A stretch of DNA of 52,194 bases from Psychroflexus curvus (lineage in GTDB: Bacteria > Bacteroidota > Bacteroidia > Flavobacteriales > Flavobacteriaceae). Both the position numbers and the translations under genes were made by a program. Within the stretch, counting starts at the first letter, position 1. Each line of letters opens with the position of its first letter. Positions 20,475 through 44,455 of the stretch are shown here, in pieces. Location: NCBI RefSeq assembly GCF_020164585.1, contig NZ_JAIQZF010000010.1, positions 1 through 52,194 on the forward strand, given 5' to 3'. The notes below the pieces were generated by a model. The model was not told the origin of the DNA. It made no database searches and saw nothing but the letters and a program-made list of their open reading frames with translations.

Positions 20475-20490
20475 AGATAAATTTGAGTTA

Positions 20491-20519
20491 GCAAATATAT
20501 ATAAATTATAAAATGACAA
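20491..20519 (-). promoter_or_regulatory. porV promoter, overlapping the 3' end of porU
   Basis: Minus-strand TATATTTGC at 20491-20499, an exact -7 element, with TTG at 20517-20519 (17-nt gap) inside the last codons of porU. It would let PorV be made apart from PorU. Confidence 0.6.
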
Positions 20520-23500
20520 GTTTTTCATATTTTTCAACCTTATGATTGGTTAACGTAGATTTTACGGTTAACTTATACACATAGACCCCTTTTCCTATTT
20601 TATCTCCAAAATCATCTCTCCCATTCCAGCTCATATCTCTAAAAAGAAAACCGCCGGTATTGGCAATTTGATTTTGAGTCCAGACCAGCTTACCTGTGAC
20701 TGTAAACACCTGCACCATAACCTCAAGGGGTTCAAATGGACGATTGTGATTAAACCAAAATTCAGTATAGTTTATAAAAGGATTCGGATAATTAAGGACA
20801 CGGGTGATTTTAAGCTCATCATTTCCAGCAACAACAAAATGGATATCTTGAGTTTGAGAATTATTATAGACATCCCAGGCTTTTAGGGTTAAGGTATGCT
20901 CTCCATCTTCCAGGTCTCGAAGCCTGTAATACACTTTACCCTTAGTGTAGTCATCACGTTCTGCTTCATAATATTCATTCAGAATTATAGGGTTGGCTTC
21001 ATCTCCATCCAAAATACCTACAATATCGTGACCTATACCTCCAGCTGTATTGATTCCATTTTCATCTTCAAGCAGTGCTAAAATATAAGGCTGATTATCG
21101 GTTATTCCTCCACTCACAAAGTTTTCATCGTTCATAAACAGATTGATAATCGGTCCTTCATTATCTTCAGGAGCATTTTCATTTAAGCCTCCTATGAGAA
21201 TATCAGTATTAAAACCACTGTATTCTTCGAGCTGGTTCTCTTTTGAAGTATAAAAACTCACCCTGCCCTTATCTACTGGAAGACGTGTGTCTTTTGGCAG
21301 AACAAATTCAAATTCAAATTCCCCATTTACCACACTAGCCTGACCTCTAAATAAATTCTCACCTAAAGTTGTAAAATCCATAATAGCCAGTTCCCCATTA
21401 ATTCTTGTTCCGTCATTCCCCAACGTCTGCCTGTCAATTCTTTTATCGAAAACCACAGCAGACAAATTTCCCTGATAGTTTTGAAGTTCCTGGCTGTTAG
21501 CATCAACTATTCGTCCTTGCAGTTTATATTTACCTAAGGCCTGTAAAGTATCATTAAATTGAGAAAAAGGGACATCGTTGATAGCTGTAAGCTGAACCCT
21601 GGACTTTGGCAGCGGCAATCTCATAGCAGGGTCCCCAACAAAAAATACAATTCGTTTTCCATTTCCAGAAATATTTCGCTTTGCCCTCGCTACCGATTGA
21701 GCAATAGTTTCATCATAATTATCAAAATCGAAAAGGTAAGGGGCAAAAACGTTATTAAACTGGACTCCTGCAAAAACACTTATTGCTCTAGTGGTCGTTA
21801 CAAGAGAAGAAGCCCCACCATTTTCGTTCCAGAAGGTAAGCTCACCGCCCGTCATTCGAAGTGGATTATCAAATTTAGTAAACTCACAGGTAATGGTAAC
21901 AAAACAGGTATAGCGATCTGGATTGCTCCAGTTCTGCGTATTGGTTTGTGTCACAATGCGTTCCTGAGCCAAACCATCCTCGCCACCATGCCCAAAATAA
22001 TTGACCACAGCCGCGCCAACTTCTATAGAATTAGTGATCGCAGTATTCACATCGGGATACCTGTCACCGCCTGCTCCTGCTATCTGTTGAAAAGCATCAG
22101 AATGGATTTTTTTTACATTTACAGTTGGTTTATTTTCTGAAATCCGATCTCCCAGATTATCCAGATCCACCTGTAAGCTAAAGTCTCTGGAATCATCGAC
22201 ATCGTCTGATATTAGTATGAAATTATTTCGCCACTCATTATAAGCTTCTTTCTGTTCAGAAGAAATGATTTTATCTATCATCGCATTTGCGCGAAGAGGA
22301 GTGTCTGCCAAAATCCTTCCTACGGCCAAATCCATTAACTCACCTTGTCGCATTCTTCCCTCGCCAGGGTCCATCATCACAAAATAATCATCGGACATAA
22401 AAGACGATACCGTAGTAGAAAAACTACCCAGGCTCTGGAAAGTTGGAACTATATTGGTGTTGCCCTGTAGCCTGTTTTTATAATCTACAGATGCATCTCC
22501 AATGATGCCTAAAAATTTTATCCTATTCTGTGGAGAAGAGGCATTGTCGTAAATATATTTAACCAAATTTCTTATGGCCCCAATATCCTGCTTACCAGAA
22601 TTGAACTCTTGATAAATATCTTCAACCGCCAGAGTCTTTACCACCAGGCCATCCTTATTTCTTCTATACTGAGCCAGCCTGTTGGCTGCAGACATAAATG
22701 AAGATTGAGTTATGATCAAATAGTCTAAATCCTGAAATTGACCTTGAGCATCGGTCAAAATAGTTCCTTTTATGTTTTGCCCTGGCACCTGTATGTTTCC
22801 GGTTTCAACTTGTGGCTGCAAATAGGCAGACGTTACCGCCTGGAATTCTCTAACAGACCCTAACGGACTTTTGAAAGAAAAAGTTGGCGACAGATCTTGA
22901 TTGGAAATAAACCTTGGGTCGATGGGGTCTGTGATGTCCCACACCTGTGTGACTTCAGCAGCATTTTGAATGACATATTCTCCAATACCACTTGTGGTTG
23001 CGGTTTCTTTATTTCTGAATTTGAATTGTTCATCACCAGCAATTAATTCTCTTTTGGCTTCAACTGAAATAAAATCCAGAAATCCTCTGGCTCCCGGATT
23101 TCCATTTTTGTTATAAGTCAATTGTAAAGTTACCTCATCAGAATTTGAGTTTACCTGCGATCTCAACTCTGCCCCTCGGGACGGAGTATTTGGTGCACTT
23201 CCTAAAATATTGACTGGATTATCCAGAGCCTGACCATTCACTGAAAGGTTGAAAGAGGAACGTATTGGTGAAATAGCCCCTAGTCTTAACTCAAGTTGAA
23301 GGGGTGTATTTTGCACCAAATTTGGAAAATTAAACTCGTAGGTTTTTTCTGTTTCTATATCAAACCTATCGCCAAACCAACGTCTTCCAACTAAGGATAA
23401 ACTTACCTCATCTACTTCATAAAATTGGTAATCGTCAAACTCAGTAAATGTTGTTGTTGCCGATCCTACAGGCTGATTTAGGACCGCCATTCGTTTTCCT

Positions 23501-24339
23501 CCACCAGAATTTACAGACACATAATAATAAGAACGATTAGCGTACAGGTTGAGGTTTGTGGCGTTTTCTTCGCTCCAACCTTGTGTAGCTGTGGCATAAA
23601 ACAACACATAATCCCCGGGATTAAATTCTCCATCACCCCCATCGAAAACTTGAATAGCGAGCTCCGGAGGGTCATAATAAAGATTGTCTTCATTTTTTAA
23701 AGGCAGCATTTCACCACCATGTCCATATATTTTCAGATTAGCAGAAGGAATACTTGATCCGTCAATGCCCAGGTTTCTTAAAAATGAAAAGTCTAAACGG
23801 TGAACACCCGTCTCTTCAACATAAAATTTTGAAAACTGACCGGAACTAAATATAGAATTCGCCAGTTGAGTGGCATTGGTTTTGGAAGTTGACACAGGTG
23901 AATTGGACGTCGATTTTAAAAGCTTTGATTCAGCTGTTTCAAAAGAAATAACTCTATGAATTGCGTTGTTTTTATAAAAATAGGGATTCAACTTTAAAAT
24001 CAGTTTTCGTTGGTTTTGATAGTTGACTTCGGTAAACTGGTAATCAACAGTTTGAGAAACTACACGAATATAATTTTTGAGTTCCCCGGAAACTTTTTCA
24101 GATTGGATATTTTTTAGAACAAGATCAGTCGCATTCGTTTCGAAAAAACGAGTGTATAAAAGATGTCCTTCATTCTCATTGAACTGAAAGTGAACAGGAT
24201 CCAATCTTGAAAAATAAGTCTCATTGAGAGATTTAATAGCAATTTTATTGTTATTAACCCAATTTAAATTAACTTTACCGCCTTGCCCGTAAGAGATGAG
24301 GCAGGTACATAAATAAAAAAAAATCGGTAAAATTTTCAT
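20506..24339 (-). CDS. porU: Type IX secretion sortase PorU
   Basis: A 1277-aa cell-surface protein of the gingipain-like (C25) cysteine peptidase family. In T9SS it cuts the sorting domain from cargo and links the cargo to a surface glycolipid. It has a signal peptide (LISYGQ end), a long N-terminal beta region, then the peptidase domain (about residues 520-930). The catalytic pair is His784 in YFGHGGEDGL and Cys818 in VTITCEFTKFDNP. The C terminus (about 1190-1277) has a FlgD-like/sorting-type fold, ITRVLNYPNPF then GVYVYKLTVKS. It is divergent from gldJ and followed by porV. Confidence 0.95.
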   Translation of the reverse strand: MKILPIFFYLCTCLISYGQGGKVNLNWVNNNKIAIKSLNETYFSRLDPVHFQFNENEGHLLYTRFFETNATDLVLKNIQSEKVSGELKNYIRVVSQTVDYQFTEVNYQNQRKLILKLNPYFYKNNAIHRVISFETAESKLLKSTSNSPVSTSKTNATQLANSIFSSGQFSKFYVEETGVHRLDFSFLRNLGIDGSSIPSANLKIYGHGGEMLPLKNEDNLYYDPPELAIQVFDGGDGEFNPGDYVLFYATATQGWSEENATNLNLYANRSYYYVSVNSGGGKRMAVLNQPVGSATTTFTEFDDYQFYEVDEVSLSLVGRRWFGDRFDIETEKTYEFNFPNLVQNTPLQLELRLGAISPIRSSFNLSVNGQALDNPVNILGSAPNTPSRGAELRSQVNSNSDEVTLQLTYNKNGNPGARGFLDFISVEAKRELIAGDEQFKFRNKETATTSGIGEYVIQNAAEVTQVWDITDPIDPRFISNQDLSPTFSFKSPLGSVREFQAVTSAYLQPQVETGNIQVPGQNIKGTILTDAQGQFQDLDYLIITQSSFMSAANRLAQYRRNKDGLVVKTLAVEDIYQEFNSGKQDIGAIRNLVKYIYDNASSPQNRIKFLGIIGDASVDYKNRLQGNTNIVPTFQSLGSFSTTVSSFMSDDYFVMMDPGEGRMRQGELMDLAVGRILADTPLRANAMIDKIISSEQKEAYNEWRNNFILISDDVDDSRDFSLQVDLDNLGDRISENKPTVNVKKIHSDAFQQIAGAGGDRYPDVNTAITNSIEVGAAVVNYFGHGGEDGLAQERIVTQTNTQNWSNPDRYTCFVTITCEFTKFDNPLRMTGGELTFWNENGGASSLVTTTRAISVFAGVQFNNVFAPYLFDFDNYDETIAQSVARAKRNISGNGKRIVFFVGDPAMRLPLPKSRVQLTAINDVPFSQFNDTLQALGKYKLQGRIVDANSQELQNYQGNLSAVVFDKRIDRQTLGNDGTRINGELAIMDFTTLGENLFRGQASVVNGEFEFEFVLPKDTRLPVDKGRVSFYTSKENQLEEYSGFNTDILIGGLNENAPEDNEGPIINLFMNDENFVSGGITDNQPYILALLEDENGINTAGGIGHDIVGILDGDEANPIILNEYYEAERDDYTKGKVYYRLRDLEDGEHTLTLKAWDVYNNSQTQDIHFVVAGNDELKITRVLNYPNPFINYTEFWFNHNRPFEPLEVMVQVFTVTGKLVWTQNQIANTGGFLFRDMSWNGRDDFGDKIGKGVYVYKLTVKSTLTNHKVEKYEKLVIL

Positions 24340-24509
24340 GGTGAAATCTTGACAATCGTTAAGATATAACGTAAAGTGTACAATGATAGTATATATTGAA
24401 TAAAATAGAAATGAGTTTAAAAAAATTTAATTCTAGCAAAGGAAAATATACTTGTTAGTACAGCGTTAATCATTATATTGCAAACAAAATTTGGATTAAA
24501 ATCGAAATT

Positions 24510-26162
24510 ATGATTATAAGAAACTTCGTTAAATCAGGCTTACTTGCTTCTTTAGCATTAGCAATGATAAGTTGTAACAACTCCAGAGATTACGATGGCA
24601 GCTCAAGAGCTACTGGCTGGGATCTGAGCGGAAAAGATGGAGGTGTAAGCTACAAAACGGATTATGAAGAACAGGAAGCTGGACCAGGACTTCTATTTGT
24701 AGAAGGAGGCACATTTACAATGGGAAGAGTACAGGATGATGTGATGCATGATTGGAACAATAGTCCAAATCAGCAACACGTTCAATCCTTTTATATAGAC
24801 GAAACTGAAGTCACCAATGTCATGTATTTAGAATACCTGGATTGGCTGAAGGAAATTTTTCCGCCCTCAGAAGAGAAATATAAAAACATTTATGTTGGCG
24901 CTTTACCTGACACTTTGGTTTGGAGAAACCCTTTAGGATTTAACGAAAGCATGGTGAATAATTACCTTAGACATCCTGCTTACCATAATTACCCTGTCGT
25001 AGGTGTCAATTGGATTCAAGCTACCGAGTTTAGCCAATGGAGAACAGACCGTGTAAACGAAAAACGGCTTGAAGAGAAAGGCTACTTTTCACGAGGTGCT
25101 TACAAAAATACCAGTGCAGAACGTGTTTTCAGTACCGAAACCTACCTCAATTCACCAAGTTTAGTTTATGGCGGTAGCGACAGTATAACCAGAGGTGGAA
25201 AACAAAGTGACAGACTTTTAAGAAACAATCCGGATAGTACCCATGTTTACGTCCAGAGAAAAGACGGGGAACTCCTTCCTTCATACAGACTGCCCACAGA
25301 AGTTGAATGGGAATACGCTGCTTTAGGTCAAAGCTCTGTAAGAGAATACAATATGTACAGAGGGAAAAAGAAATACCCATGGGATGGACAATACACAAGG
25401 TCTGGAGATAGAAACACCGTAGGTGACCAACGCGCCAATTTTAAACAAGGAAAAGGGGATTATGGCGGGATAGCCGGATGGAGTAGTGATGGAGCCGATA
25501 TTACTGCAGAGGTAAAATCTTTTGATCCTAACGATTATGGTCTATACGATATGGCAGGAAATGTATCTGAATGGGTGGCAGATGTTTACAGGCCAAAAGT
25601 GGCTAATGATTACAACGACTTCAACTATTTCAGAGGTAATGTCTACACTAAAAACGCTATCACTGAGGATGGAACAGTAAAGGTTTTAGGTCCAGATGAG
25701 GTTGTTTACGATACCTTAAGCAATGGTAAAATTTTAGCCAGAACTATTCCAGGTGAAATTGCTCAGGAAAGAATTGGTGAAGAAGAGACGTATTTAAGAA
25801 CTCAATTCTCGAAAAGCGATAATAAAAACTTTAGAGACGGAGATAAATCTTCTTCTAGATATTATAATAAAGCCGACACAGGTACAGGAGAACAGCTTAT
25901 GTACGATTCACCTGAAAACTCAGTGACCTTAAAAGACGGAGAAATAAACAGAACAATGGATAATTCTTCTTCAAGAACAACACTTATAGATGACAACGTA
26001 AGGGTGTACAAAGGCGGGTCCTGGAAAGACAGAGCCTACTGGCTGGATCCTGCTCAGAGAAGGTTTTACCCACAAGACATGGCAACAAATGACATCGGTT
26101 TTAGAAACGCCATGTCCAAAGTTGGTTCTAAATCCAATAAAGGGAGAAGAACAAGAAATTAA
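24510..26162 (+). CDS. gldJ: Gliding motility lipoprotein GldJ
   Basis: A 550-aa outer-membrane-associated lipoprotein needed for gliding and T9SS stability in Flavobacterium. The lipobox is LALAMISC with Cys22. The rest is a formylglycine-generating-enzyme (SUMF1) fold: FVEGGTFTMGRVQDDVMHDW, VVGVNWIQATEFSQWR, YRLPTEVEWEYAA, GLYDMAGNVSEWVADVY and VYKGGSWKDRAYWLDPAQRR. The catalytic cysteine of true sulfatase-modifying enzymes is not visible. It is divergent from porU and followed by a terminator. A TTG (24453-24455 region) and TATATTGC, near 24474-24481, form a near-match promoter. Confidence 0.95.
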   Translation: MIIRNFVKSGLLASLALAMISCNNSRDYDGSSRATGWDLSGKDGGVSYKTDYEEQEAGPGLLFVEGGTFTMGRVQDDVMHDWNNSPNQQHVQSFYIDETEVTNVMYLEYLDWLKEIFPPSEEKYKNIYVGALPDTLVWRNPLGFNESMVNNYLRHPAYHNYPVVGVNWIQATEFSQWRTDRVNEKRLEEKGYFSRGAYKNTSAERVFSTETYLNSPSLVYGGSDSITRGGKQSDRLLRNNPDSTHVYVQRKDGELLPSYRLPTEVEWEYAALGQSSVREYNMYRGKKKYPWDGQYTRSGDRNTVGDQRANFKQGKGDYGGIAGWSSDGADITAEVKSFDPNDYGLYDMAGNVSEWVADVYRPKVANDYNDFNYFRGNVYTKNAITEDGTVKVLGPDEVVYDTLSNGKILARTIPGEIAQERIGEEETYLRTQFSKSDNKNFRDGDKSSSRYYNKADTGTGEQLMYDSPENSVTLKDGEINRTMDNSSSRTTLIDDNVRVYKGGSWKDRAYWLDPAQRRFYPQDMATNDIGFRNAMSKVGSKSNKGRRTRN

Positions 26163-31994: not shown

Positions 31995-34900
31995 CTAGTT
32001 GATGATGATTTTTTTGGTGTACTCTTTATCATCCACCTCAATATTAATAAGATACACTCCGCTTTCCAGATTCTCTATTTTTCGAGTCGTCATTAAACCG
32101 TTTTCTACGTTTACAGATTCAGTAAAAATCAGTCTTCCCGCCATATCCATCAACTGTAAGCTGGCATTCTTACCGCTAAAGTCTGGCAGTTGAATGTTCA
32201 GAATCTCTGAAGCTGGATTTGGATACACACTGATGTCTTTGGTATTGATCTCCTCCACTCCAAGGGTCTCCTGTTCAAACTTCAGTTCGAATCTTGTGAT
32301 CGAGACACTCTCAGGAATTTGTTTATTGGCCGTAAAGGCGTAGGTAGTCACAGCGTTATTTTCTAGTTTTTGAAGATCTCCTGTATAGTTATCTTTGAGG
32401 TAGGCTGTTTTTTCAAAATCCTGCACATCCATTTCTAATTGATATGCAGCGTTCTTGTAGTTGAATAAGTTAAACTGGACCGTCTCTTCCGGAGCAGGAT
32501 AATTTCGCCTCTCGATGGATAAGTACTTATCCTTATGACGAATGGCAAACGACTCATCAGAATTCCAGAATTTAAGCGCATCGTTATTGAGTATGGCGTT
32601 GTCAAAACTCTCTTTGAAATATAACCTAACCCCATCGGCTACAATATAATTTGAATTGTCATTCCTCTTCAAAGTTACATCTAAGCTGGCCGTGTTGTCC
32701 ACACTAAAAGTTCCATTAGTAAATCCCTGATTCAAATTCTTTTTGTGTGTTTCCTTAAAGGTTAGACTAGGTAAAGGCCCGGTATTTTCAACAAACATGG
32801 ACTGGTTGGGCTGTAAAAATCTATTTGCTTTTGAGTATGTAGGTACAGGAGTTCCTGATGCTAAATCAACAGTTGCATAGCCACCTCTTAGGTTAATGGT
32901 GGGATCATAAATCCAAATAGTTTCAGTATTAACGCCAGTCACATTAGCACTGGCCAAAAGCTCTTTGATATCGACCTGAGCCTGGTAAGGGTTGGCTATT
33001 AGACTGAATTCTCCAACATCAGGGGCAAGATTTTGTACTACAACATCTCCAGTTTCGAGTTCACCCGTAAAACGCAGGGTTGTGGGATCTTGTGACGCTA
33101 CATTATTATTGATATTTAAGTTAAGCTCACGCCCCCCACGTATCATTAAGGCGTAGGATTCTCCAACATTTAAAGTTTTTGTATCTGTATTAGGTATGGC
33201 ATCCCATCGCTGAGGAGAAGATGCTTCATTCCAAGTATACATGGAAGGATTACCCGTTTGGGTAGCATCAAAACCATTATCACCCGTTGTAGACCCGGTG
33301 ATATGCGTCCCAAAACCAGGGGTCTGAACCGATTCTGGATAATTCGTATAATCGGTAACTTGATTGCCTTCCTGAAGATTGGCCTGAATGGTTTTTTTAT
33401 CACACGCAGAAGTTTTTACAGAAGAAGCTATGTATCTAAAGGCGCGTTTATTCGGTTGGATGTAGCGCTCTACCACCACACAACCTGAAATACCAGCACT
33501 ACTGCCAACTTGTGATAGCACCGCGGTTTGAACTTCAGTGCTTTTGAAAGTTAATAACTTACCAGGAGCTATTGTAAATGTACCCAGGTTAAGATCTAAA
33601 ATATGAATTAAATCTGCATTGTCTGTAAGTGTAACCCCAGCAGGAGCAGTAGCAGAGTTATTCACCCGAATATGTTCAAAACTTCCGGCATCTGGGTCTG
33701 TAGCTGCACCATTTCCAATAATTTGTTGGGCAGCAGTACCATCAAAAACCACAAAACCTTCACCCCTAAAATCACCTTTATTGGTCAGGTTTTCTTTTAT
33801 ATGAAGTGTTTGAAGCGTGTCAATAAACACTGTATAAGGTGCATCAACGGATAATTCACCTACTTCCTGACTAATAGTGACGTTGGCATTAGCCTTCACA
33901 ATAGCTGTATCTAAGGCAGTTGGAAGTCGGTTAAAGTTCCAGTTGGCTTGAGTTTCCCAGGTTCCGCCTAGGCCCACATCTCCGGCGCTTCCTTCAAAAA
34001 TATAAGGCTCGCATCCAGAACTTATAGATGCGTTAGTAACATTGGCTAAACCTGTACCATTATAGCCTGCTCCAACAACCAGTCCATTAATATCCACAGT
34101 TGGGACACCAGCCCCATAAATACGGTCGTCGCCTCCATCTGCAGAGGGATTGTTATAATATTCATTGGCATCGGAACAGCCATCGCCGTCGGAGTCCAGG
34201 TCTAAAAAGTCTCGTAAACCATCGCCGTCTGTATCCTGATTACTACCAAGGCCTTCCTCAGTATTTAAAATCCCGTCATTATCAATGTCGTCATCATTTT
34301 TATCTAAAACCCCGTCCTTGTCTGAATCCGGAAGTTGGGAAGAAAATGAAATTTGCCAACCATCTCCTGCAGATTCAGTACTGGAATCTGCCCAAGGACC
34401 TCCTCCGTCGCCTTTTATGAAAACTTTAAACTTAACACTTGTAATATTTTCACCGTTTAAACGGACAGACCCCTGAGCAGAATCATCGCCAGTATTACCA
34501 GGTGATGCCTGGTTATGTATAATTTCATTACCATTTACAACAACAAATGCTGAAGTTCCCGAAAGTCTCGTTAAACTTTTATCGGCATCAACTAATTCAA
34601 ATTCAGTTGAAACTAATTGTCCAGTTCCACCAGTCCCGCCTAATCCAGCTATGTGGATTATAGGGTCTGTAAGCGGCGTGTCAAATTCAATCAGCATATC
34701 AGCCATTCTTACCGTAGCGTCTGTAAGTACACCAGAACCAATTAATGCCGCTGTGTTAGTTAAAATAGATAAACCACTATTTTCTGTAACAGAAATACCT
34801 GTTCCTGTTGCTGATGATGTGGATGTAAAGTAAGAATCTAATGGATTACCAAAAACATTAAAACTTGTGTATATAGGAGTAGCAAGATTTATCTCATAAC

Positions 34901-35837
34901 CAAACACCACCGCTGCATTTTCTGTAAAACCACTGAAATCAGCTCCATCAAAATCATAGGGCTGATTATCAAAAGTGACCGTTGCTTCTAGAGATGGACT
35001 GTAGGTAACAAAATTGTTAGCTGATGGATTATTTGTATTTTCAGATAACTGTACAGCTGCGGAAAGTGCAGGTCCTTGCCCCGTGGGATTTGTTCCGAGA
35101 GTTGAAAGTTCAAGAGAAGGGAAACTAAACCTGACTCTTCCGTTTGCTCCAGCACCTCCAGCACCACCATTATTCCCTTGAAAATATCCTCCACCACCGC
35201 CGCCACCAGGAACAAGGCCTGGAAATCCGTTGTCCCCTTTAAGTGCACCATTTCCTCCATTTCCTCCACCATCTGGGGCTGCAGCTCCAATACGTCCATC
35301 AATTGCATCAGTACCATTTGCATTTATTCCTGCAGAGGAACCGCCACCCCCCGCATAAATACCATCTTCAGAATTTGATCCTGTTCCACCTGAAAACTTA
35401 ATATCTCCAATACCGTTAGTAGTAGCACCTCCAGTTGCCCCAATATTTGAATCATTTGGAACTGAATTACCACCAACAGCTCTTACAAAAACGTTGCCTT
35501 CTAATGAAGCTTCAGACGTTCCTCCAGGATTTGTATCATTTGAACCGGCACCTACTGTATAGTTAATTACCTGCCCTGGAGATACATTCACTATCTGGAG
35601 AGAATAAGCACCACCACCACCACCACCACCAGTAGTTTTATTTCCAGTTCTGCTACCACCACGTCCACCACCACCCCAGACTTCAACTGTAATTTGAGTT
35701 ACACCTGCTGGGATCTCAAAGGTCTTATTAGACCCAGGAGTATCATCTACTTGCTGAGAATAAGTACTCAGACCATAAAAGCAAAACAATGAGGTAAATA
35801 GGAAAAGGAATGGTATTCTGGGGATGTAAAATTTCAT
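31995..35837 (-). CDS. Giant secreted protein with T9SS type A sorting domain
   Basis: A 1280-aa secreted protein. The signal peptide ends STYSQQ. A glycine-rich domain covers about residues 35-235, beginning FEIPAGVTQITVEVWGGGG. A beta region follows, then thrombospondin type 3 calcium repeats at about 505-555 (DSDKDGVLDKNDDDIDNDG). Next is a long module starting GGTWETQANWNFNRLPTALD, of a kind common in Bacteroidetes surface proteins. The last 85 or so residues are a T9SS sorting domain, with ISVYPNPASEILNIQL, LMDMAGRLIF and SGVYLINIEV. It should cross the outer membrane through T9SS using PorV and PorU. From the TSP3 region on it is a paralogue of the split gene at 37386-44165. Role unknown; adhesion or matrix is a guess. 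Confidence 0.85.
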   Translation of the reverse strand: MKFYIPRIPFLFLFTSLFCFYGLSTYSQQVDDTPGSNKTFEIPAGVTQITVEVWGGGGRGGSRTGNKTTGGGGGGGAYSLQIVNVSPGQVINYTVGAGSNDTNPGGTSEASLEGNVFVRAVGGNSVPNDSNIGATGGATTNGIGDIKFSGGTGSNSEDGIYAGGGGSSAGINANGTDAIDGRIGAAAPDGGGNGGNGALKGDNGFPGLVPGGGGGGGYFQGNNGGAGGAGANGRVRFSFPSLELSTLGTNPTGQGPALSAAVQLSENTNNPSANNFVTYSPSLEATVTFDNQPYDFDGADFSGFTENAAVVFGYEINLATPIYTSFNVFGNPLDSYFTSTSSATGTGISVTENSGLSILTNTAALIGSGVLTDATVRMADMLIEFDTPLTDPIIHIAGLGGTGGTGQLVSTEFELVDADKSLTRLSGTSAFVVVNGNEIIHNQASPGNTGDDSAQGSVRLNGENITSVKFKVFIKGDGGGPWADSSTESAGDGWQISFSSQLPDSDKDGVLDKNDDDIDNDGILNTEEGLGSNQDTDGDGLRDFLDLDSDGDGCSDANEYYNNPSADGGDDRIYGAGVPTVDINGLVVGAGYNGTGLANVTNASISSGCEPYIFEGSAGDVGLGGTWETQANWNFNRLPTALDTAIVKANANVTISQEVGELSVDAPYTVFIDTLQTLHIKENLTNKGDFRGEGFVVFDGTAAQQIIGNGAATDPDAGSFEHIRVNNSATAPAGVTLTDNADLIHILDLNLGTFTIAPGKLLTFKSTEVQTAVLSQVGSSAGISGCVVVERYIQPNKRAFRYIASSVKTSACDKKTIQANLQEGNQVTDYTNYPESVQTPGFGTHITGSTTGDNGFDATQTGNPSMYTWNEASSPQRWDAIPNTDTKTLNVGESYALMIRGGRELNLNINNNVASQDPTTLRFTGELETGDVVVQNLAPDVGEFSLIANPYQAQVDIKELLASANVTGVNTETIWIYDPTINLRGGYATVDLASGTPVPTYSKANRFLQPNQSMFVENTGPLPSLTFKETHKKNLNQGFTNGTFSVDNTASLDVTLKRNDNSNYIVADGVRLYFKESFDNAILNNDALKFWNSDESFAIRHKDKYLSIERRNYPAPEETVQFNLFNYKNAAYQLEMDVQDFEKTAYLKDNYTGDLQKLENNAVTTYAFTANKQIPESVSITRFELKFEQETLGVEEINTKDISVYPNPASEILNIQLPDFSGKNASLQLMDMAGRLIFTESVNVENGLMTTRKIENLESGVYLINIEVDDKEYTKKIIIN

Positions 35838-36213
35838 TTAACTTAAAATTTAATTTTAACTTAGGATTGGTGGTGTAAAACTAAAAAACTTAGAAAACAA
35901 GTGACTTTGAATAATTGTGAAGACTTAATCGAAATTGCTTTTTGGGCAATATTTTTTTTAAAAAAGGCATTAAAAAGTTATTTTTAATTAAAAAAACGGG
36001 CTTTTTGATGATTAGGACTAAGGAATAACAGGTTGATGTTAGCTGTGTTAAACCGGGACTGATTAGATAAAATACTGCTCTTATTTAAGAATTACATAAA
36101 GCTTAATCCTGTAAACTCCCATCACTGATTAAATTGCTTAGCAAGCGTTCTGACGAAATTGAAATTACCCAGGCTTGGATATCCTGGATAGAATGACTTT
36201 AATAATTAAAATG
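35838..36213. other. Intergenic region with putative operator copy 3
   Basis: No gene seen. It holds the upstream region of the 1280-aa protein: AATTGT at 35913-35918 and AATTGC at 35933-35938, 20 nt apart. A near -7 element, TAGTTTTA (minus strand), lies closer to the gene. The same half-site pair is found upstream of 36945 and of 44165. Confidence 0.5.
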
Positions 36214-36945
36214 TTACTGGTCGTCGATAGTTAACTCTACGGGTGAGGGGAAATTGATATCCACAACACTGGTTGAGGAATTGTAAGCTTCCTGAATCAC
36301 TTCTAAACTCGGTCTGTGATTTGGGTTTTTAGCATCATCAGAATGTATGCTAAACCAGGGATTATCTTTAGTCTGAGGCACTAAAACAATCCCGTAATTT
36401 GGATAAATACCGTATAACCACTCATTGGCCAAAGTAGTAATGTCTATATTGTAAACCGTGCCCTCCGGATTGGAATAATTTGCAGTGGCTGAGGCATACA
36501 CCGTCCCTGAAAAATCTCCACCAGGGGTTTCCCAGTTTGTAATACCGGAAGAATTCCAGTTAAGTCCGGCAACTTTTTCATAATAGCTTCCGTTGCCTTC
36601 AATCCAAGGCTTCGTGACCCGATACACATCAAAAGCAATAGTTCCGTTTGTTCCGGTGCCTTCGCCCTGTACCAACCTTAAATTGGCATCTGTAATACTA
36701 TAATCGGACTCCAGATTACTAAGGTCAAACTCGATAAAGATATTTTCCTGTTCTCCAGATTTAGACTCTAAAAATACATCAGGACAAGCACCGTTATTGA
36801 ATTCGTTTCTAATTTCATAATTAGAAGTTACTTTGGAAGACGTGATTGTATTACTGATTTGAGAAAAAACTTCATCACTACTGAACACTACGAGGAGTAT
36901 CAATAGTAAAAGCTTAAACTTATTCAGGTTACAATAAAATTGCAT
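36214..36945 (-). CDS. Secreted DNRLRE-domain protein
   Basis: A 243-aa exported protein. The signal peptide runs through LLLLILLVVFSSDEVFSQ. Residues about 30-225 look like one DNRLRE domain, a beta-sandwich of the carbohydrate-binding type found in secreted Bacteroidetes proteins: VFLESKSGEQENIFIEFDLS, VYRVTKPWIEGNGSYYE, YNIDITTLANEWLYG and SDDAKNPNHRPSLEVI. No T9SS sorting domain follows; the protein stops soon after the domain (VELTIDDQ), so it may be truncated or leave by another route. It lies between two giant sorting-domain genes and shares their upstream element. Confidence 0.7.
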   Translation of the reverse strand: MQFYCNLNKFKLLLLILLVVFSSDEVFSQISNTITSSKVTSNYEIRNEFNNGACPDVFLESKSGEQENIFIEFDLSNLESDYSITDANLRLVQGEGTGTNGTIAFDVYRVTKPWIEGNGSYYEKVAGLNWNSSGITNWETPGGDFSGTVYASATANYSNPEGTVYNIDITTLANEWLYGIYPNYGIVLVPQTKDNPWFSIHSDDAKNPNHRPSLEVIQEAYNSSTSVVDINFPSPVELTIDDQ

Positions 36946-37385
36946 TTTAATAACGGATTAAATTTAAATTCAGGAACAAAAATATGTAATAGCACAGTTA
37001 ACCGATTTTAATTATTGCGGCTGCTTACGAGCAATTGCTTTTTTAGTAAAATTTTATGATTTTTTTATGAAAAATAAGGTGTGTTTTTTATATCGAAAAC
37101 GACAGACTAACCTGCCTGAGTTTGAATTTAAAGATTAACCTCCTGATAACAAAGGCCCTAAGTGAAATTTATAAAACGACTGTAAGTAATGCTTACAACC
37201 TTCAGTCATGATCAAATCCGGAATAACTACGCACCACCTGCTTTTCAAAAATCCTATTTCTTAAAAAAATACTGCGTTTTTTAGTCAAAGTCTGAAGGCA
37301 TTTGCATTAGACCATTTTAGTGCTTTTTTTGCTTCCCTATCCTGATGAAGAACCGTTAATTTTAAATACAGCATCCTTAAGAACA
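36946..37385. other. Intergenic region with operator copy 2 and promoter of the DNRLRE gene
   Basis: No gene seen. On the minus strand an exact -7 element, TATTTTTG, lies at 36977-36984 with no TTG at -33. Instead, half-sites lie at 37013-37018 (TATTGC) and 37033-37038 (AATTGC), 20 nt apart, ending just upstream of the -33 position. A small hairpin, TGTAAG/CTTACA, lies at 37181-37197. Confidence 0.5.
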
Positions 37386-40300
37386 CTATTCGATTATAAT
37401 TTTTTTGGTGTATTCCCGCGTATCAATCTTAATTTTAACCAGATACACCCCGCTTCCTACCTGCTCTATTTGTCGGGTCGATAGGATACCGTTTTCAGGA
37501 CTTAGCGTTTCTCTGAACAGCAGTCGACCAGCCATGTCTATCACTTGCAGCTCCGCCTTTTCAGCACTCAGGTAAGGCAGCTGAATGTGCAGGAGTTCTG
37601 AAGCGGGATTGGGATAGACGCTTATGCCTTCACTTTCCATATCCTCGGTACCAAGCGTCACTGCTTCAAACCCAAGCTCAAAGCGAGTACTCGACACACT
37701 TTCCGGGATTTGTTTATTCGCTGTAAACGCATAGGTAGTTACCGCATCCTGTTCCAGTTTCTGAAGCTGGCCTGTATACTTGTCTTTTAAATAGACTGTT
37801 TTATCTAAATCTTTCGCCTTTAATTCAAACTGATATTCGGCGCTGGAATAGTTAAACAGACTCAACTGAACTGACTCCTCTGCTTCAGGATAGTTTCGCC
37901 TTTCGATGGATAAATAGGTACCAGCCTGGTTGATGGCCAGTGACTCACCCGAGTTCCAGAGTTTAAGTGCATCGTTGCCTTGTACGGCCTTGCTGAAGTT
38001 ATCTTCAAAATATAACCTTACCCCATCCACAAGGGTATAATCCGACTGATGATAACGCCTTAAGGTGATATCCAGTTTACCGGTATTATCCACACTGAAG
38101 GTCCCGTTGGTGAATTCTTTATCTGAACCTTTTTTATGACTTTCTTTAAAAATTAAAGCAGGAGTATTTCCTGTATTTTGGACAAACATAGACTGATTGG
38201 GCTGCAGGAATTTAGTTGCTCTTGAACCTAAAGGCACCGGATCAAAATCAGGGCCTTGCATGTCTAAAGCCGCATAGCCCCCGTGAACCCCCAGGTTGGG
38301 ATCGTAAATCCAGACATGAGCAATATTGATGTTTGATACATCAGCATCAATTAAAAGCGTTTCAATATCCACCTGAGCCTGGTAAGGATTAGCGATTAAA
38401 CTGAATTCTAAATTATTTGCAGCCACACCAACTGCCGGGAAATTACCCGTGACCAGTTCCCCTGTGAAACGCAAGGTGGTTGCCGAGCCGAGTTGTGTGT
38501 TGTTGAGGTTTAAATCGAGTTCACGCCCCCCGCGCACCATCAGGGCATAGGCTTCTCCAACATTCAATTGTTTTGTGTTAGTATTAGGAATGGCGTTCCA
38601 CTGCTGCGTTGTAACATTCCAGGAAAACATGGACGGATTGCCCGTTTGCGTGGCATCAAACCCATTGGCAACGGCGTTAGAACCTGTGATATGCGTCCCA
38701 AAACCAGGGGTCTCACTCACTCCGGGATAGTTCGTATAATCGGTAACTTGCTGGTCTTCCTGAAGATTGTCCTGAATGGTTGGCCTGCCGCAGTTCGTCG
38801 TGCTCACTGCAGAAGCGATGTATCTGTACGATCGATTGGTGGGAGGTATAAAACGTTCCACGATGACACAACCGGAAACAGTAGTTCCTGAAGCCACCTC
38901 GGTTAAAACAGCCGTTTGATTTTCAGTGCTTTTAAAGGTTAAGAAATTATCAGCTTCAATCGTAAATGTTCCGGCATCCAGGTCTAACACATTCAGTACA
39001 TCCGCATCATCGGTGAGTGTTAGGCCGGCCGCATTGTTTAGCCGTATATTGCTAAAACTTCCAGCACTCGAATTCCCTACCAGGCCATTGCCTATAATTT
39101 GTTGAGGAGCATCTCCGTCAAAGACCAAATAACCATAACCTTGAACAATTCCATTATTGGTCAGGTTTTCTTTGATGCTGAGCGTTTGCAGCGTATCGAT
39201 AGACACAATAAAAGGAGAGTCAATGATCAATTCCCCCACTTGCTGTAAAATAGTTACATTGGTATTAGCTCTTACTTCAGCCGTATCAATGGCCGTAGGA
39301 AGCCGGTTAAAATTCCAGTTGGATGCAGTACCCCAGGCCCCACCTAAACCTGTGTCTCCGGCGCTTCCTTCAAATATATAGGGCTCACATCCCAGAAATA
39401 CAGTATTATCAATAACATTAGCCAGATTTGGTCCGTCATAGCCGGCCCCAACCACAAGACCATTAGCATCTACAGCTGGTGTACCGTTACCAAAAATACG
39501 ATCATCTCCGCCATCGGCAGAGGGATTGTTGTAATATTCATTGGCATCGGGACAGGCATCGCCGTCAGAGTTTAAATCCATAAAGTTGAGTGTTCCGTCA
39601 GCATCTGTATCCACAGGCGTAAAGCCATTTCCTGTATTGGCTGCATCCGGAACACCATTTGTGGTTGTCCCACTAATACGGCCCTCTGCAGATATGGTCC
39701 CCGTAAAGGTCGGATCAGCTTCCAGCACATCATAAATCCCGTCGTTATCGGAGTCAGTGTCCAGGTAATTTAGAAGGCCATCACCGTCCGTATCACAATT
39801 CAAAAACAGGGCTTCAATGACGATTAAACCGTTACCGCCAGGTACAGCATTGAAATTCCCTCCGGTTCCTACACCCGCCACATAATCCGGATCGGTCGTA
39901 CGCGGCGGCGTCTGTACACTTCCGCGTATCGTCTCACCATCAATCGTGCTCGTTATGGAGATATAGCCTGAACCACCGCCACCGCTACCTTCATTATTGC
40001 TTGCAATCGTACCTGAGCCACCGCCATAATAGCCACCACCCCCTGCGCCTCCATTTAAAACCGCATTTCCGCCAACTAAATAGTCGCCGGGATTACCATT
40101 AGGCGGGCTTCCCCCACCAGAGTTTTGATCTCCACCAAGTCCATTTATTGACGCACTACCACTATCGGCATCACCACCAGACAGGCCTCCACCCTCACCA
40201 GCATGAGATCCTGGATTAGTAAAGGCTGGCGATGTTCCACCGCCACCTGCTATAGCTATTAGATCTGAAATAGAGACTGAGGCTGGATTGGATAGCGAAG

Positions 40301-41291
40301 CATAAGTTAGAGCGGACATACCTCCGCCTGAACCAAAATTTCTAGAACCATCACTATCCCCAGCACCTCCATTCCCATACGTCCTGGAACCTGTCGAAGA
40401 ATCCCCTCCCTGTCCAACGGTGACCGTGAGAGACGTACTCGTTAGGGAGGACACAGATATCATCACTTCTGTAAATCCCCCGGCACCGCCGACGCCTCTT
40501 CCACCTTGTGTATCTCCACGACCTCCGGCGCCCCAGATCTTGACTTTAAGGTGGGAGGCTCCTGCAGGCACATTATAGGTCTGGTCTACGCCAGTATAGG
40601 CTAAGACTGTTTTCTGCTTAGGAATACCACACTCATCCTCGTTTAAAATTCCGTCATTATCAGCATCCAAATCACACAGGTCTGCAACCCCATCTCCATC
40701 GGTATCTGTATTTCCGGAGGCTACAGGATTACACGCGTTACAGGCTTCTGTGATCGTGTTGTCGATTGCATCGGCATAGTTTGTGCCGTTATAGTCTGCC
40801 TGTTCTACCCGTCCGTCGGCATCCACCTTTAGTGAACTGGAGGTTCCATATTCTAAATCATCATCGCCATTAAGGTTCCCATCGGCATTGCCACTAAAGT
40901 AGTATTCGTTGGCATCTGAGCAGCCGTCAGCATCGGAGTCTAAATTAATGAAGTTTGGGGTTCCATCATTGCCTGTATCCACAGGGGTAAATCCATTTCC
41001 TGTATTGGCAGCAGTTGGGACACCATTTGCCGTTATCTCATTAGTATTAATATCAATGCGACCTTCTGCAGTTATAGTTCCAGCAAAACCTGGCTCAGCT
41101 TCCAATACATCGTAAATACCATCGTTATCGGAGTCTAAATCCAAATGGTTAGGAATGCCATCACCGTCTGTATCTAGAAATAAAGTGGCTTCATACCGGA
41201 TTCTGCTTAGCGACCATGCCACTGTATTATCATACCTGGCTGCATCCATCAATCCTGAGTAATTTGAAACTGCTACTCCATCATCAACTGC
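37386..41291 (-). pseudogene. 3' part of giant secreted T9SS gene, cut off by an in-frame TAA
   Basis: This frame runs on, in the same reading frame, from the TAA at 41292-41294 that ends the upstream part. It has no signal peptide and no plausible start of its own (first candidate codons are TTG 41252 and ATG 41249, inside a LamG end). It encodes the end of the LamG domain, TSP3 repeats (DTDGDGIPNHLDLDSDNDG), a second glycine-rich domain (VPAGASHLKVKIWGAGG), more TSP3, the GGAWGTASNWNFNRLPTAID module and a T9SS type A sorting domain (ISVYPNPASELLHIQL, SGVYLVKIKI). From the later TSP3 region on it is a close paralogue of the protein at 31995-35837. If the stop is real, this part is probably not made. 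Confidence 0.75.
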
Positions 41292-44165
41292 TTATGAACC
41301 ATTACCTATGGTTCCACCAACGCCTCCAGCGTCCCCATGTGCCGGGACTGTATTATAATCTGCATCTACTGAATTTGAAGCTCCATCTAAGTAAACCGTT
41401 AATGTTCCACTATCAAATGTGGCTGCTACATGATGCCACTTGTTGTCCACCGTTAAAGCATCACCCACAGTGACATCAATCTGATTGAAACTAGAACTAG
41501 CCGCCCTTGTGGTGTATGTTAATAGGCCATCATTAAGCCATAAAGCAGATCCGTTACTATTGCCCCCTTCTTCATAAATAATTCGATTTCCACTTACATT
41601 ATCCGGTTTAATCCAGGCGGAAAAACTGATTTGTGTATAAGCACTTTCCATAAAGCCACCGTCCACGCTATATCTTATTTCCTGATCCGTTCCGTTAAAA
41701 CTAGCAGAATGAGTTCCCTCTATAACATCGGTTGTAGAATAACCAGGAGCAATAGTGCCGCCAGCGACTGCATCGTGGTTATTCACAGAACTATCATTTG
41801 TTGTATTATCAAACGTCCAGAAAGCTTCAGGTTCAGGACTAGCATCAAAAACCGCTGATCCAGATCCATTTGCTTCATCTGCATTTAAAATCCCATCATT
41901 ATCAGCATCCAGATCACACAAGTCTGCAATGCCATCCCCATCGGTATCTGTATTTCCTGACGATATTGGGTTGCACGCGTTACAGGCTTCTGTGATCGTG
42001 TTGTCGATAGCATCGGCATAGGTTGTGCCGTTATAGTCCGCCTGTTCTACCCGTCCGTCAGCATCCACCGTAAGTGTACTGGAGGTTCCATACTCTAAAT
42101 CATCATCTCCATCTATATTTCCATCGGCATTGCCACTAAAGTAGTATTCGTTAGCATCGGAACAGCCGTCATTATCAGAATCTAAATCTAAACGATTGGG
42201 AACGCCATCGTTATCTGAATCGAGGTCAGAAGATAAGATTGAGAAAGGAATTGATCTTTTAGTTATTAGGCTGCTTTCATAGCTTACTTCAAGAATTTGC
42301 CCACCATCATTTTCAAAAAATAAGATTTCTATACTATGGACTCCCGCACTTAGCGTGATATTTTCAGATCGTTCTCTAGGGGCAGTAAGACCGTCATTAT
42401 CAACCACCTCTATCCCATCAATGAATAACTTGGAGCCATCGTCTGAATTGGTATAGAAGGTATAAGCCCCCGCTGTGGCTATGTTTATCGAACCCTTGTA
42501 ACGAATTGAAAAGGTGTCAGCGTTACCAGTTAAACTGGTACTTAAGCTCGTGACATCAAAGTCTGATACATTACCTGAGTAATCAGGAGTTGTTGTAGGA
42601 ATGTTATCCACGCTATTGCCGGCAGGAACACTATCGTAAAATTCATAACTTAATTGTCCAATGGTGAGTTCATCAGAGTCCAAAATCCCATCGTTATCTG
42701 AATCTAAGTCCAGGTAATCTGGAATACCATCGCCATCTGTATCTAAGGAGGTTTCAGCACACGGAGCTACTTTAAATAAAATTTCTTCGATCCAGGGATC
42801 CCATAGAACCTGACCGCCACCTACCCATAAAATTCTATAATTGCTATAGGCTGTTGTATTGGCACTCAGGCTAAATACTTCCTGCTCACCGGAGACCACG
42901 CCATCTGAAGTGCCTGAACCTAAAAGATCCCAGGATGTTCCGTTAAAGCCCTGTATTTGATAGGCCACATTGTTCCCCAGAAATGAGTTATTTTGGGTAT
43001 TAGTTAAGTCATCTGTATTCAAAAGCACCTTTAATTCGGTGATGACCAGGGGTTCTACAAATGAGATATTAAAAATCTCTGTTTCAGTACCAGGGTAAGT
43101 TTGATTGTTGCCAAAAAAGAAGTTTTCCTGAGTAAGAATACCATCGTACAGTGTAGCAATATCATTAAAGGATGTAAGCTCTGTCGTAACTCCGGAAATA
43201 GCTTTGGTTATATAACAGGTAGACCCCTCATTAAGATCTGCAAGGCCATCATTATCATTATCGAAATCGTTTTCATCGGCAATTCCATCCCCATCGGTAT
43301 CCAGGGAATACCTCAAAATCACAACCCCGGAACCCCCGTCGCCACCTGCGAAAACAGAATTAATACCTCCTCCGGCACCGCCACCTCCGCCTCCGGAATT
43401 GGCTTCTCCATCCTGCGCATTTCCAAAAGTATTGCCTGTTCCGCCACCGCCTGAGCCGCCTGTACCATCCGTTTCAGATTCTGTAGCGCCGCCACCGCCA
43501 CCAGCGTAAAATGTAGATGTACCAGTTATAGCATTTTGAATGCCGGTTCCTCCAGTTCCGCCTTGACGATCAGAACCGTCACCTCCGGCAGCACCAGCTC
43601 CACCGCCTCCGCCCCCGCCTCTTCGGACTGTATTGTTAGCGTTAAATGAATTGCCACCCGCATTACCCTGACCTGCCGGAATGGGATCGCCTGGTCCTAG
43701 TGATCCACTATCTACTGCGCCACCTTCACCGCCACCAGAGCCGCCATTACCTCCTCTGTTGTTTGAATCTTGACCTATACCGCCGCCGCCGCCGCCAGTA
43801 GCAAGAACAGAGCCAAATTCAGAATCTAGTCCGTTTGCTCCTCGCGTGTTATCTAAACCACCTGGGGCACCCGCACCACCGGCTCCCACTGTTACTGTAA
43901 GAACAGTACCAGGCGTAACAGGCAGGATGCCCTGTCGCAACCCGCCGGCACCGCCACCACCACCAAACCAGGCACCACCGCCACCGCCACCGGCAATGAC
44001 CAGATATTCTATGCTTGTAACCCCTTCGGGCACGGTGAATGTCGTGGTTCCTGGGGTATCGAATGTTGTGACTTCCTGGGCGTAACTAGCAAAACAAAAA
44101 AAGCCAAAGAATAGAATCACTGAAAACGCAAATCTTAGCCTTTGGTAATTAAAATGACTAATCAA
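41292..44165 (-). CDS. 5' part of giant secreted protein (957 aa before an in-frame stop)
   Basis: Signal peptide (FGFFCFASYAQ), then a glycine-rich domain (about 35-290, beginning FTVPEGVTSIEYLVIAGGGG). TSP3 calcium repeats alternate with other domains: a discoidin-like part (about 320-465), a PA14 domain (about 505-640, with NIATAGAYTFYTNSDDGSKL) and a LamG domain (about 775-957, with WTFDNTTNDSSVNNHDAVAG). The frame ends at TAA 41292-41294 inside the LamG domain, just before its last strand. Without the stop the protein would have 2259 codons and end in a T9SS sorting domain. As it stands the product has a signal peptide but no sorting domain, so it could not be attached to the surface by T9SS. 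Confidence 0.75.
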   Translation of the reverse strand: MISHFNYQRLRFAFSVILFFGFFCFASYAQEVTTFDTPGTTTFTVPEGVTSIEYLVIAGGGGGGAWFGGGGGAGGLRQGILPVTPGTVLTVTVGAGGAGAPGGLDNTRGANGLDSEFGSVLATGGGGGGIGQDSNNRGGNGGSGGGEGGAVDSGSLGPGDPIPAGQGNAGGNSFNANNTVRRGGGGGGGAGAAGGDGSDRQGGTGGTGIQNAITGTSTFYAGGGGGATESETDGTGGSGGGGTGNTFGNAQDGEANSGGGGGGAGGGINSVFAGGDGGSGVVILRYSLDTDGDGIADENDFDNDNDGLADLNEGSTCYITKAISGVTTELTSFNDIATLYDGILTQENFFFGNNQTYPGTETEIFNISFVEPLVITELKVLLNTDDLTNTQNNSFLGNNVAYQIQGFNGTSWDLLGSGTSDGVVSGEQEVFSLSANTTAYSNYRILWVGGGQVLWDPWIEEILFKVAPCAETSLDTDGDGIPDYLDLDSDNDGILDSDELTIGQLSYEFYDSVPAGNSVDNIPTTTPDYSGNVSDFDVTSLSTSLTGNADTFSIRYKGSINIATAGAYTFYTNSDDGSKLFIDGIEVVDNDGLTAPRERSENITLSAGVHSIEILFFENDGGQILEVSYESSLITKRSIPFSILSSDLDSDNDGVPNRLDLDSDNDGCSDANEYYFSGNADGNIDGDDDLEYGTSSTLTVDADGRVEQADYNGTTYADAIDNTITEACNACNPISSGNTDTDGDGIADLCDLDADNDGILNADEANGSGSAVFDASPEPEAFWTFDNTTNDSSVNNHDAVAGGTIAPGYSTTDVIEGTHSASFNGTDQEIRYSVDGGFMESAYTQISFSAWIKPDNVSGNRIIYEEGGNSNGSALWLNDGLLTYTTRAASSSFNQIDVTVGDALTVDNKWHHVAATFDSGTLTVYLDGASNSVDADYNTVPAHGDAGGVGGTIGNGS

Positions 44166-44455
44166 AATGTGGAGCTCTTTACTTGTTTAGTATAATATTA
44201 ACTATAAACAAAAAAGAGAAATTTTAATAATTGCGACCGATAAGCGACAATTGCTATTTTAACATTACTTTAATAGATGTAAGGTATTAAAATGTAATTT
44301 TTAACAGGCAGAATAAGCTTTTTAGCCTCCGAATTTTGAAAGATTGAACTCAATTCATCTCTAACACCTTGATTTGAAATCACCTAGGGTGTTTTGAAAA
44401 TTTGCTGCTATAAGTGATAAAATGCTTTGTTAAAAAAACCAGGAGTAATTTAAAA
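44166..44455. other. Intergenic region with operator copy 1
   Basis: No gene seen in these 290 nt. Half-sites AATTGC lie at 44229-44234 and 44249-44254, exactly 20 nt apart, 64 bp from the start codon of the giant gene. No exact TAnnTTTG is visible; only TAATATTA lies at the expected place on the minus strand. Confidence 0.5.

Follow-up and report, generated by a model that had tools for sequence, protein, structure and literature searches.

Which regulator reads the paired GCAATT repeats that stand upstream of a block of giant surface-protein genes in Psychroflexus curvus, and how far does its regulon reach? The block lies in a window of 52,194 nucleotides (nt; contig NZ_JAIQZF010000010.1, positions 1 to 52,194, which is contig C2 of our study genome G000, 3.0 Mb in 35 contigs), and its genes encode a protein of 1280 amino acids (aa), a 243-aa protein and a giant frame. 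Before each of them the minus strand carries an element of two half-sites with a period of exactly 20 nt. We conclude that the element is real, conserved and regulatory, and that its general kind is known; a candidate regulator can be named, and the regulon of surface proteins is small. The element is probably the operator of an autoregulated two-component regulator composed of a receiver and an AraC-type DNA-binding domain, which would activate a few genes for surface proteins of the type IX secretion system (T9SS).

A genome scan by sequence match located copy 1, GCAATT-N14-ACAATT, at 35913..35938 before the 1280-aa gene, copy 2, GCAATT-N14-GCAATA, at 37013..37038 before the 243-aa gene and copy 3, GCAATT-N14-GCAATT, at 44229..44254 before the giant frame. 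In full they read AGCAATT-TCGATTAAGTCTTC-ACAATTATT, AGCAATT-GCTCGTAAGCAGCC-GCAATAATT and AGCAATT-GTCGCTTATCGGTC-GCAATTATT on the minus strand, so that the form in the window is AGCAATT-N14-(A/G)CAAT(T/A)ATT. When the sequence was re-read, all half-site coordinates in the initial annotation of this DNA were recovered, and so were the 20-nt period (3/3 copies) and the distances to the start codons (76, 68 and 64 nt); the start codon of the giant frame at 44165 is TTG. The same annotation had described exact GCAATT pairs followed by conserved ATTATT-like bases before three genes, and this needs some correction: four of the six half-sites are exact but the near ones of the genes at 35837 and 36945 are ACAATT and GCAATA, the ATTATT-like bases are kept in the three window copies but not across the genus, and the three genes hold as transcription units although open reading frame (ORF) calling yields four ORFs. 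A -7-like element TAGTTTTA, one base off TAnnTTTG, is predicted on the minus strand at 35876..35883, 35 nt past the near half-site of copy 1, and a -7 element TATTTTTG is predicted on the same strand at 36977..36984, 34 nt past that of copy 2. The absence of a -33 TTG, which had been taken as a sign of an activator, turned out not to be informative; 15/16 element promoters are without it (one has it), yet so are 59/67 other TAnnTTTG sites (eight have it), in a comparison whose two site sets used slightly different spacer windows.

With up to two mismatches, the pattern GCAATT-N14-RCAATWATT gives four matches in the window, three of them exact, while shuffled windows give a mean of 1.39 and reach four in 4/100 shuffles. 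Its exact matches in the 3.0-Mb genome number three, all in the block (reversed control, 0), and the four one-mismatch matches outside the block are all within ORFs. The exact-match genome count alone is post hoc, because the pattern was derived from the same three sites. Within the window, loosening the pattern brings it down to background (35 vs 32.4). In G000 and Psychroflexus aurantiacus (G004) together, a search with a looser pattern gives 24 matches, six of them in the block, against four in the control; outside the block, 12/18 are within ORFs and three lie in a repeat array. This array, at the end of P. aurantiacus contig C12 (L037:430-640), is intergenic and minisatellite-like, with many ACAATT/ACAA units about 20-27 nt apart, and it accounts for three matches to the loose tandem pattern.

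In relatives, where the initial annotation had left it to be seen whether the half-sites are kept, they are kept at a period of 20 nt with changed spacers. The P. aurantiacus orthologue of the 243-aa gene has a nearly identical element, and the orthologue of the 1280-aa gene has both half-sites at 20 nt with the spacer and the bases past the near half-site changed. The slot of the 44165 gene, beside an amidohydrolase gene, is occupied there by a different gene, whose product is 52% identical in its N-terminal part to the 243-aa protein and which bears its own copy of the element with an unrelated spacer. Half-sites and spacing are retained while spacers, and even genes, change. The argument that the 36945 gene is not a paralogue of the other two has to be qualified in view of this relative in the neighbouring slot, and duplication is therefore part of the history of the block. 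P. aurantiacus contigs C1 and C49 both end within surface-protein genes (L017:3-1946 and L016:1-409), apparently of the same block, so that the assembly of this genome probably splits it.

What is conserved more widely was examined in 27 Psychroflexus genomes. As a genus motif, GCAATY-N14-RCAATWATT does not carry over: it gives 13 matches in 9 of the 27 genomes (control, 1). Five of these belong to the block or to the corresponding block of P. aurantiacus; the other eight, seven of which overlap ORFs while one is situated between ORF calls, include none before a T9SS gene. Upstream of the genes for related giants in G019 and G022 there is the same geometry with a smaller core, AGCAAT, and a TAnnTTTG that begins 34 nt past the near GCAAT. 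The conserved form is GCAAT-N15-GCAAT with a -7 element TAnnTTTG 33-35 nt later. The scan of genome and relatives suggested by the initial annotation fails with the window-derived consensus, and only the GCAAT core with its -7 element generalises. Searched as GCAAT-N15-GCAAT-N29-TAnnTTTG with up to one mismatch, this form gives 17 matches in nine genomes and one in the reversed control. Five of them are within ORFs and 12 are intergenic, including all seven exact ones. Each intergenic copy precedes a secreted-looking gene (judged by eye from the N-terminus), mostly a giant one, with the near GCAAT 54-79 nt from the start codon (the distance of 62 for G020 contig C43 is measured to the second ATG). 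For nine of these 12 target genes the product matches that part of the 1280-aa protein which holds the T9SS tail, and no tail was seen in the remaining three, which are two orthologues of the 243-aa gene and a contig-truncated P. aurantiacus gene. A further target family consists of proteins of about 1030 aa with a CDCD-like N-terminus.

In the loci examined, a scan of half-site periods finds 24 sites at period 20 and 0-2 at each of the periods 14-19 and 21-29; most of these loci had been fetched by a period-20 pattern or model, 8/24 sites come from loci fetched otherwise and 3/24 are ORF-internal. At the period-scan sites and at 2/3 window copies the near half-site lies 33-35 nt before a TAnnTTTG, all these promoters being predicted ones. 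Of the shared activator of a surface-protein regulon that the initial annotation proposed, the shared operator is borne out by the relatives, which carry the element 54-79 nt before secreted-looking genes, but activation is indicated by its position only. A search with the strict pattern in 397 family genomes, only three of which belong to the own genus, matched only G000 and one ORF-internal place (control, 1). Beyond the genus, then, the element is rare at the least, and we have dropped the idea of a family-wide element.

A profile of the element, a sequence-only model from 16 copies with which 150 first-look candidates were scored in each of the 27 genomes, gives 17 matches of at least 28.8 bits in nine genomes. 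Fifteen of the 17 are training sequences, and the other two (G001 and G008) both stand before a CDCD-type T9SS gene. Below 28.8 bits there is the training copy on G000 contig C35 (22.8 bits), and background begins at 20.3 bits, which is also the top score in any genome that lacks the candidate regulator described below. Direct inspection of the CDCD-type genes of G005 and G021 showed 9-of-10 copies, followed at 35 nt by TAGTTTTG. A regulon of T9SS cargo, as expected at the outset, holds for a small subset but not in general: the whole-region scan of 29 other T9SS regions of G000 and P. aurantiacus finds the element plus -7 in none (0/29), and a general T9SS regulon was rejected. When these regions are viewed by their longest ORF, L207 yields the neighbouring AraC gene, and L214 has a 9-of-10 tandem at -151. 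Of the 15 regulator-less genomes, 14 supplied 43 regions of T9SS type or related to it, and an element match was found in none of these regions (0/43); 38 of them have a usable start that is in some cases perhaps a neighbour's, a few are cut by contig ends and none came from G016. Three genes of regulator-less genomes (G012, G002 and G014) that resemble the CDCD-type family, as judged by eye from the N-termini, are without the element. A computed Fisher value was set aside, as the genomes are related and one table included the regulator's own operon.

The regulator was sought in the LytTR and AraC families. Four AraC-domain genes were found in G000, and one of them, outside the window at G000:C1:353521-354258, encodes a 245-aa protein with a receiver and an HTH_18 domain. 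Full-length relatives of this protein (48-100% identity; next best, 29%) occur in 12 of the 27 genomes. All nine genomes with strong element copies are among these 12, as are G005 and G021. The receiver residues D10, D11, D53, T81 and K103 are invariant (12/12), and the first recognition helix, SGWSKFHFIR, is nearly invariant among the 12 proteins. Among solved structures, the DNA-binding part is most closely related to RamA, SoxS and MarA, and a Foldseek comparison adds the AraC-type domain of the response regulator AraT.

No single link between this regulator and the element is stronger than the site at the regulator's own operon. It was the protein, not the element, that led to the retrieval of these loci. 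Upstream of the two-gene operon, 7/12 genomes carry [T/A]CAAT-N15-GCAAT followed, 33 nt past the near core, by TATATTTG or TATCTTTG, and G005, with the -7 at 32 nt, brings the total to 8/12; the near core is 61-71 nt from the start codon. The operons are close orthologues, and because of this the eight copies are not eight independent cases. In G000 the regulator gene overlaps by 4 nt the gene of a 200-aa histidine-kinase-like protein, whose HisKA_2 match is weak in G000 (22.8 bits, cut-off 22.3), below the cut-off in G020 and missing in G019. Histidine 21 is invariant in 11/11 aligned partners, and light-regulated histidine kinases such as EL346 come nearest to the predicted model of the partner (mean predicted local distance difference test score, pLDDT, 76). 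Inspection by eye showed no apparent ATP-binding motifs, and a sequence search of solved structures with the partner found nothing. With its histidine kept, no sensor domain and no obvious ATP-binding motifs, the partner (L315:902-1504) is possibly a phosphotransfer protein.

Another AraC-family group, with genes of about 300 aa, was considered. In G024 and G015 such a gene lies at most some kilobases from the CDCD-type gene, in G025 it lies near T9SS genes (L308, L313, L314), and by coordinates it is also found in G001, G005 and G008. The group was set aside as the regulator, as none of its members was seen in G000 (4/4 AraC genes fetched) or P. aurantiacus (2/3 fetched).

Several observations weigh against the assignment to this receiver-AraC regulator or limit its force. 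Copy 3, before the giant frame, has no clear predicted -7 element at the usual distance. The form of the core with -7 was picked after the upstream sequences of G000, P. aurantiacus, G019 and G022 had been viewed, and 7/9 of the genomes in the profile scan contributed training sequences. Because that scan scored 150 candidates per genome, weak copies may have been missed. In G025, which has the regulator, the CDCD-type T9SS target gene is without the element. The regulator operon of P. aurantiacus retains only the near half-site and the -7, and those of G020, G022 and G019, whose regulators are only 48-58% identical, are without the element though the T9SS genes of these genomes carry it. Moreover, in an unrooted nine-protein tree the placement of the regulator-bearing genomes is consistent with a single clade; one event may therefore account for the co-occurrence, and a different regulator acquired by that clade would fit equally well.

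This last point leads to the most serious rival, in which an operator of the same geometry is read by another regulator (another AraC protein, a LuxR/NarL protein or one of unknown family) gained in the same subclade. We consider it a real but distinctly less probable explanation. It gains from a co-occurrence that is not independent of phylogeny, from a regulator survey that covered two families and from the three genomes with the element at T9SS genes and not at the candidate operon, whereas the element at the candidate's own promoter in 8/12 genomes, and a period of 20 that suits AraC-type receivers, point back to the candidate. The LytTR response regulator that the initial annotation had suggested is far less likely. 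LytTR sites, too, are direct repeats with a spacing of about two turns, and LytTR proteins are present in 27/27 genomes, but the sole match in G000 is a 108-aa ORF without a receiver and without an ATG near its start. This ORF (L282:2474-2797, contig C23) may be a relic or a small regulator. It is about as improbable, perhaps slightly less so, that the three copies are remnants of duplicated promoters with no shared regulator today. Duplication did occur here, to judge from the 1280-aa protein, which is 64% identical over 755 aa to the end of the giant frame, and from the 243-aa relative in the neighbouring P. aurantiacus slot; against this reading, half-sites and spacing are retained among unrelated spacers, and the same geometry precedes another T9SS family and the regulator operon.

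Chance matches in AT-rich upstream DNA would fit with loose patterns at background, with a strict pattern derived from its own sites and with the shuffles that equal the two-mismatch count. This reading is already hard to hold, with all three exact genome matches in one 8-kb block, with 12 of the 17 genus matches before secreted-looking genes against a single control match, and with the period scan; cross-species conservation with changing spacers argues against it, and we give it hardly any weight. Equally little can be given to an element acting in the RNA leader by riboregulation, or as a recombination site that shuffles surface genes, as its place in the 5' region of exchangeable surface genes might suggest. 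The element is upstream of the predicted -7 and hence outside the transcript, and its 14-nt spacer holds no shared crossover sequence.

We therefore return to the receiver-AraC regulator, for which a mechanism can be proposed. Two regulator subunits would bind head-to-tail on the two GCAAT-core half-sites, whose spacing of 20 nt is exactly two turns of the helix. About 34 nt before the -7 TAnnTTTG, the near half-site is at the place of a class-II activator, from which the subunits would most likely contact RNA polymerase at the -33 region. An A-rich block 11-12 nt past the G of the near core in the 16 copies is no more than suggestive, as a possible contact of a second helix-turn-helix. The regulator, most likely the 245-aa protein of G000, would be phosphorylated in response to a signal and activate, rather than repress, a handful of T9SS genes together with its own operon; in P. 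curvus these targets would be the block's three transcription units, possibly joined by the 955-aa cargo gene of contig C35. A more specific picture is possible, and we offer it tentatively: a dedicated, positively autoregulated circuit, fed via a sensor-less and possibly ATP-independent histidine phosphotransfer protein, would co-switch a small and rapidly changing set of giant T9SS proteins, whose genes are swapped while the twin-box promoter is kept. Such a circuit would govern the cargo of the T9SS and not its machinery.

The gene content of the block was obtained by ORF calling and domain search. The 1280-aa protein (31995..35837, minus strand) has a Gly-rich domain and a T9SS type A sorting tail. 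The 243-aa protein (36214..36945, minus strand) has DNRLRE / Disaggr-repeat matches and an N-terminus that looks secreted by eye, and the domain search found no T9SS tail in it. The giant frame (37386..44165, minus strand) has a Gly-rich domain, PA14, LamG, a second Gly-rich domain and a T9SS tail. Por_Secre_tail, the C-terminal sorting domain of T9SS cargo, is matched both in the 1280-aa protein and where the giant frame ends. Two ORFs are called in this frame on account of a lone in-frame TAA at 41292-41294 (minus strand) within the LamG part, which may reflect a nonsense mutation, a fault of assembly or another cause. In G025 the CDCD-type T9SS gene, the one copy seen without the element in a regulator-bearing genome, also appears as two ORFs (L314:4004-7053). 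The core T9SS and gliding genes PorV, PorU and GldJ are on the same contig at window positions 19308-26162, some 6-12 kb from the cargo block. A search of a plasmid collection gave no match.

Finally, how surface proteins are chosen for expression in T9SS bacteria is little explored in the literature we found, in which such work concerns the machinery (PorX/PorY-SigP). Among the titles listed by a literature search, none concerned this element, an AraC-type regulator of T9SS cargo or transcription control in Psychroflexus. The present finding supplies a concrete operator, a short list of targets and one candidate regulator operon. Among known systems, MarA, SoxS, RamA and Rob are related through the DNA-binding part, three of them (RamA, SoxS and MarA) being the closest solved relatives of the candidate, with an SGxSK(W/F) helix. 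Their sites contain GCAC, and the receiver-free MarA, SoxS and RamA bind single sites, whereas here a receiver and a fixed tandem pair are present. At the Pm promoter a dimer of XylS is reported to occupy two direct repeats of 15 bp, both of which have a box A (TGCA) and a box B (PMC5481539). Compared with this class-II arrangement of XylS/AraC proteins, the Psychroflexus element has a period of 20, a -7 of the Bacteroidota type and at most a weak A-rich block at the place of box B, and its candidate regulator has a receiver in place of the effector-binding domain. PorX/PorY-SigP is a two-component system tied to the T9SS in Bacteroidota (PMC4800418), described for the expression of T9SS components in Porphyromonas; in the present case cargo genes and a receiver-AraC regulator are involved, not T9SS components. 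A further likeness is to the AraC-type hybrid two-component systems (HTCS) of Bacteroides, whose operators are predicted as direct repeats of 16+5, 12+9 and 14+6 bp with periods of 21, 21 and 20 (PMC3878776). Both combine a receiver with an AraC-type DNA-binding domain and direct repeats with a period of 20-21 (here 20). On the other hand, the Psychroflexus regulator is a separate 245-aa protein with a 200-aa kinase-like partner instead of one polypeptide with sensor and kinase, and the targets in the block are characterized by T9SS tails and by Gly-rich, PA14, LamG and DNRLRE domains instead of SusC/SusD.

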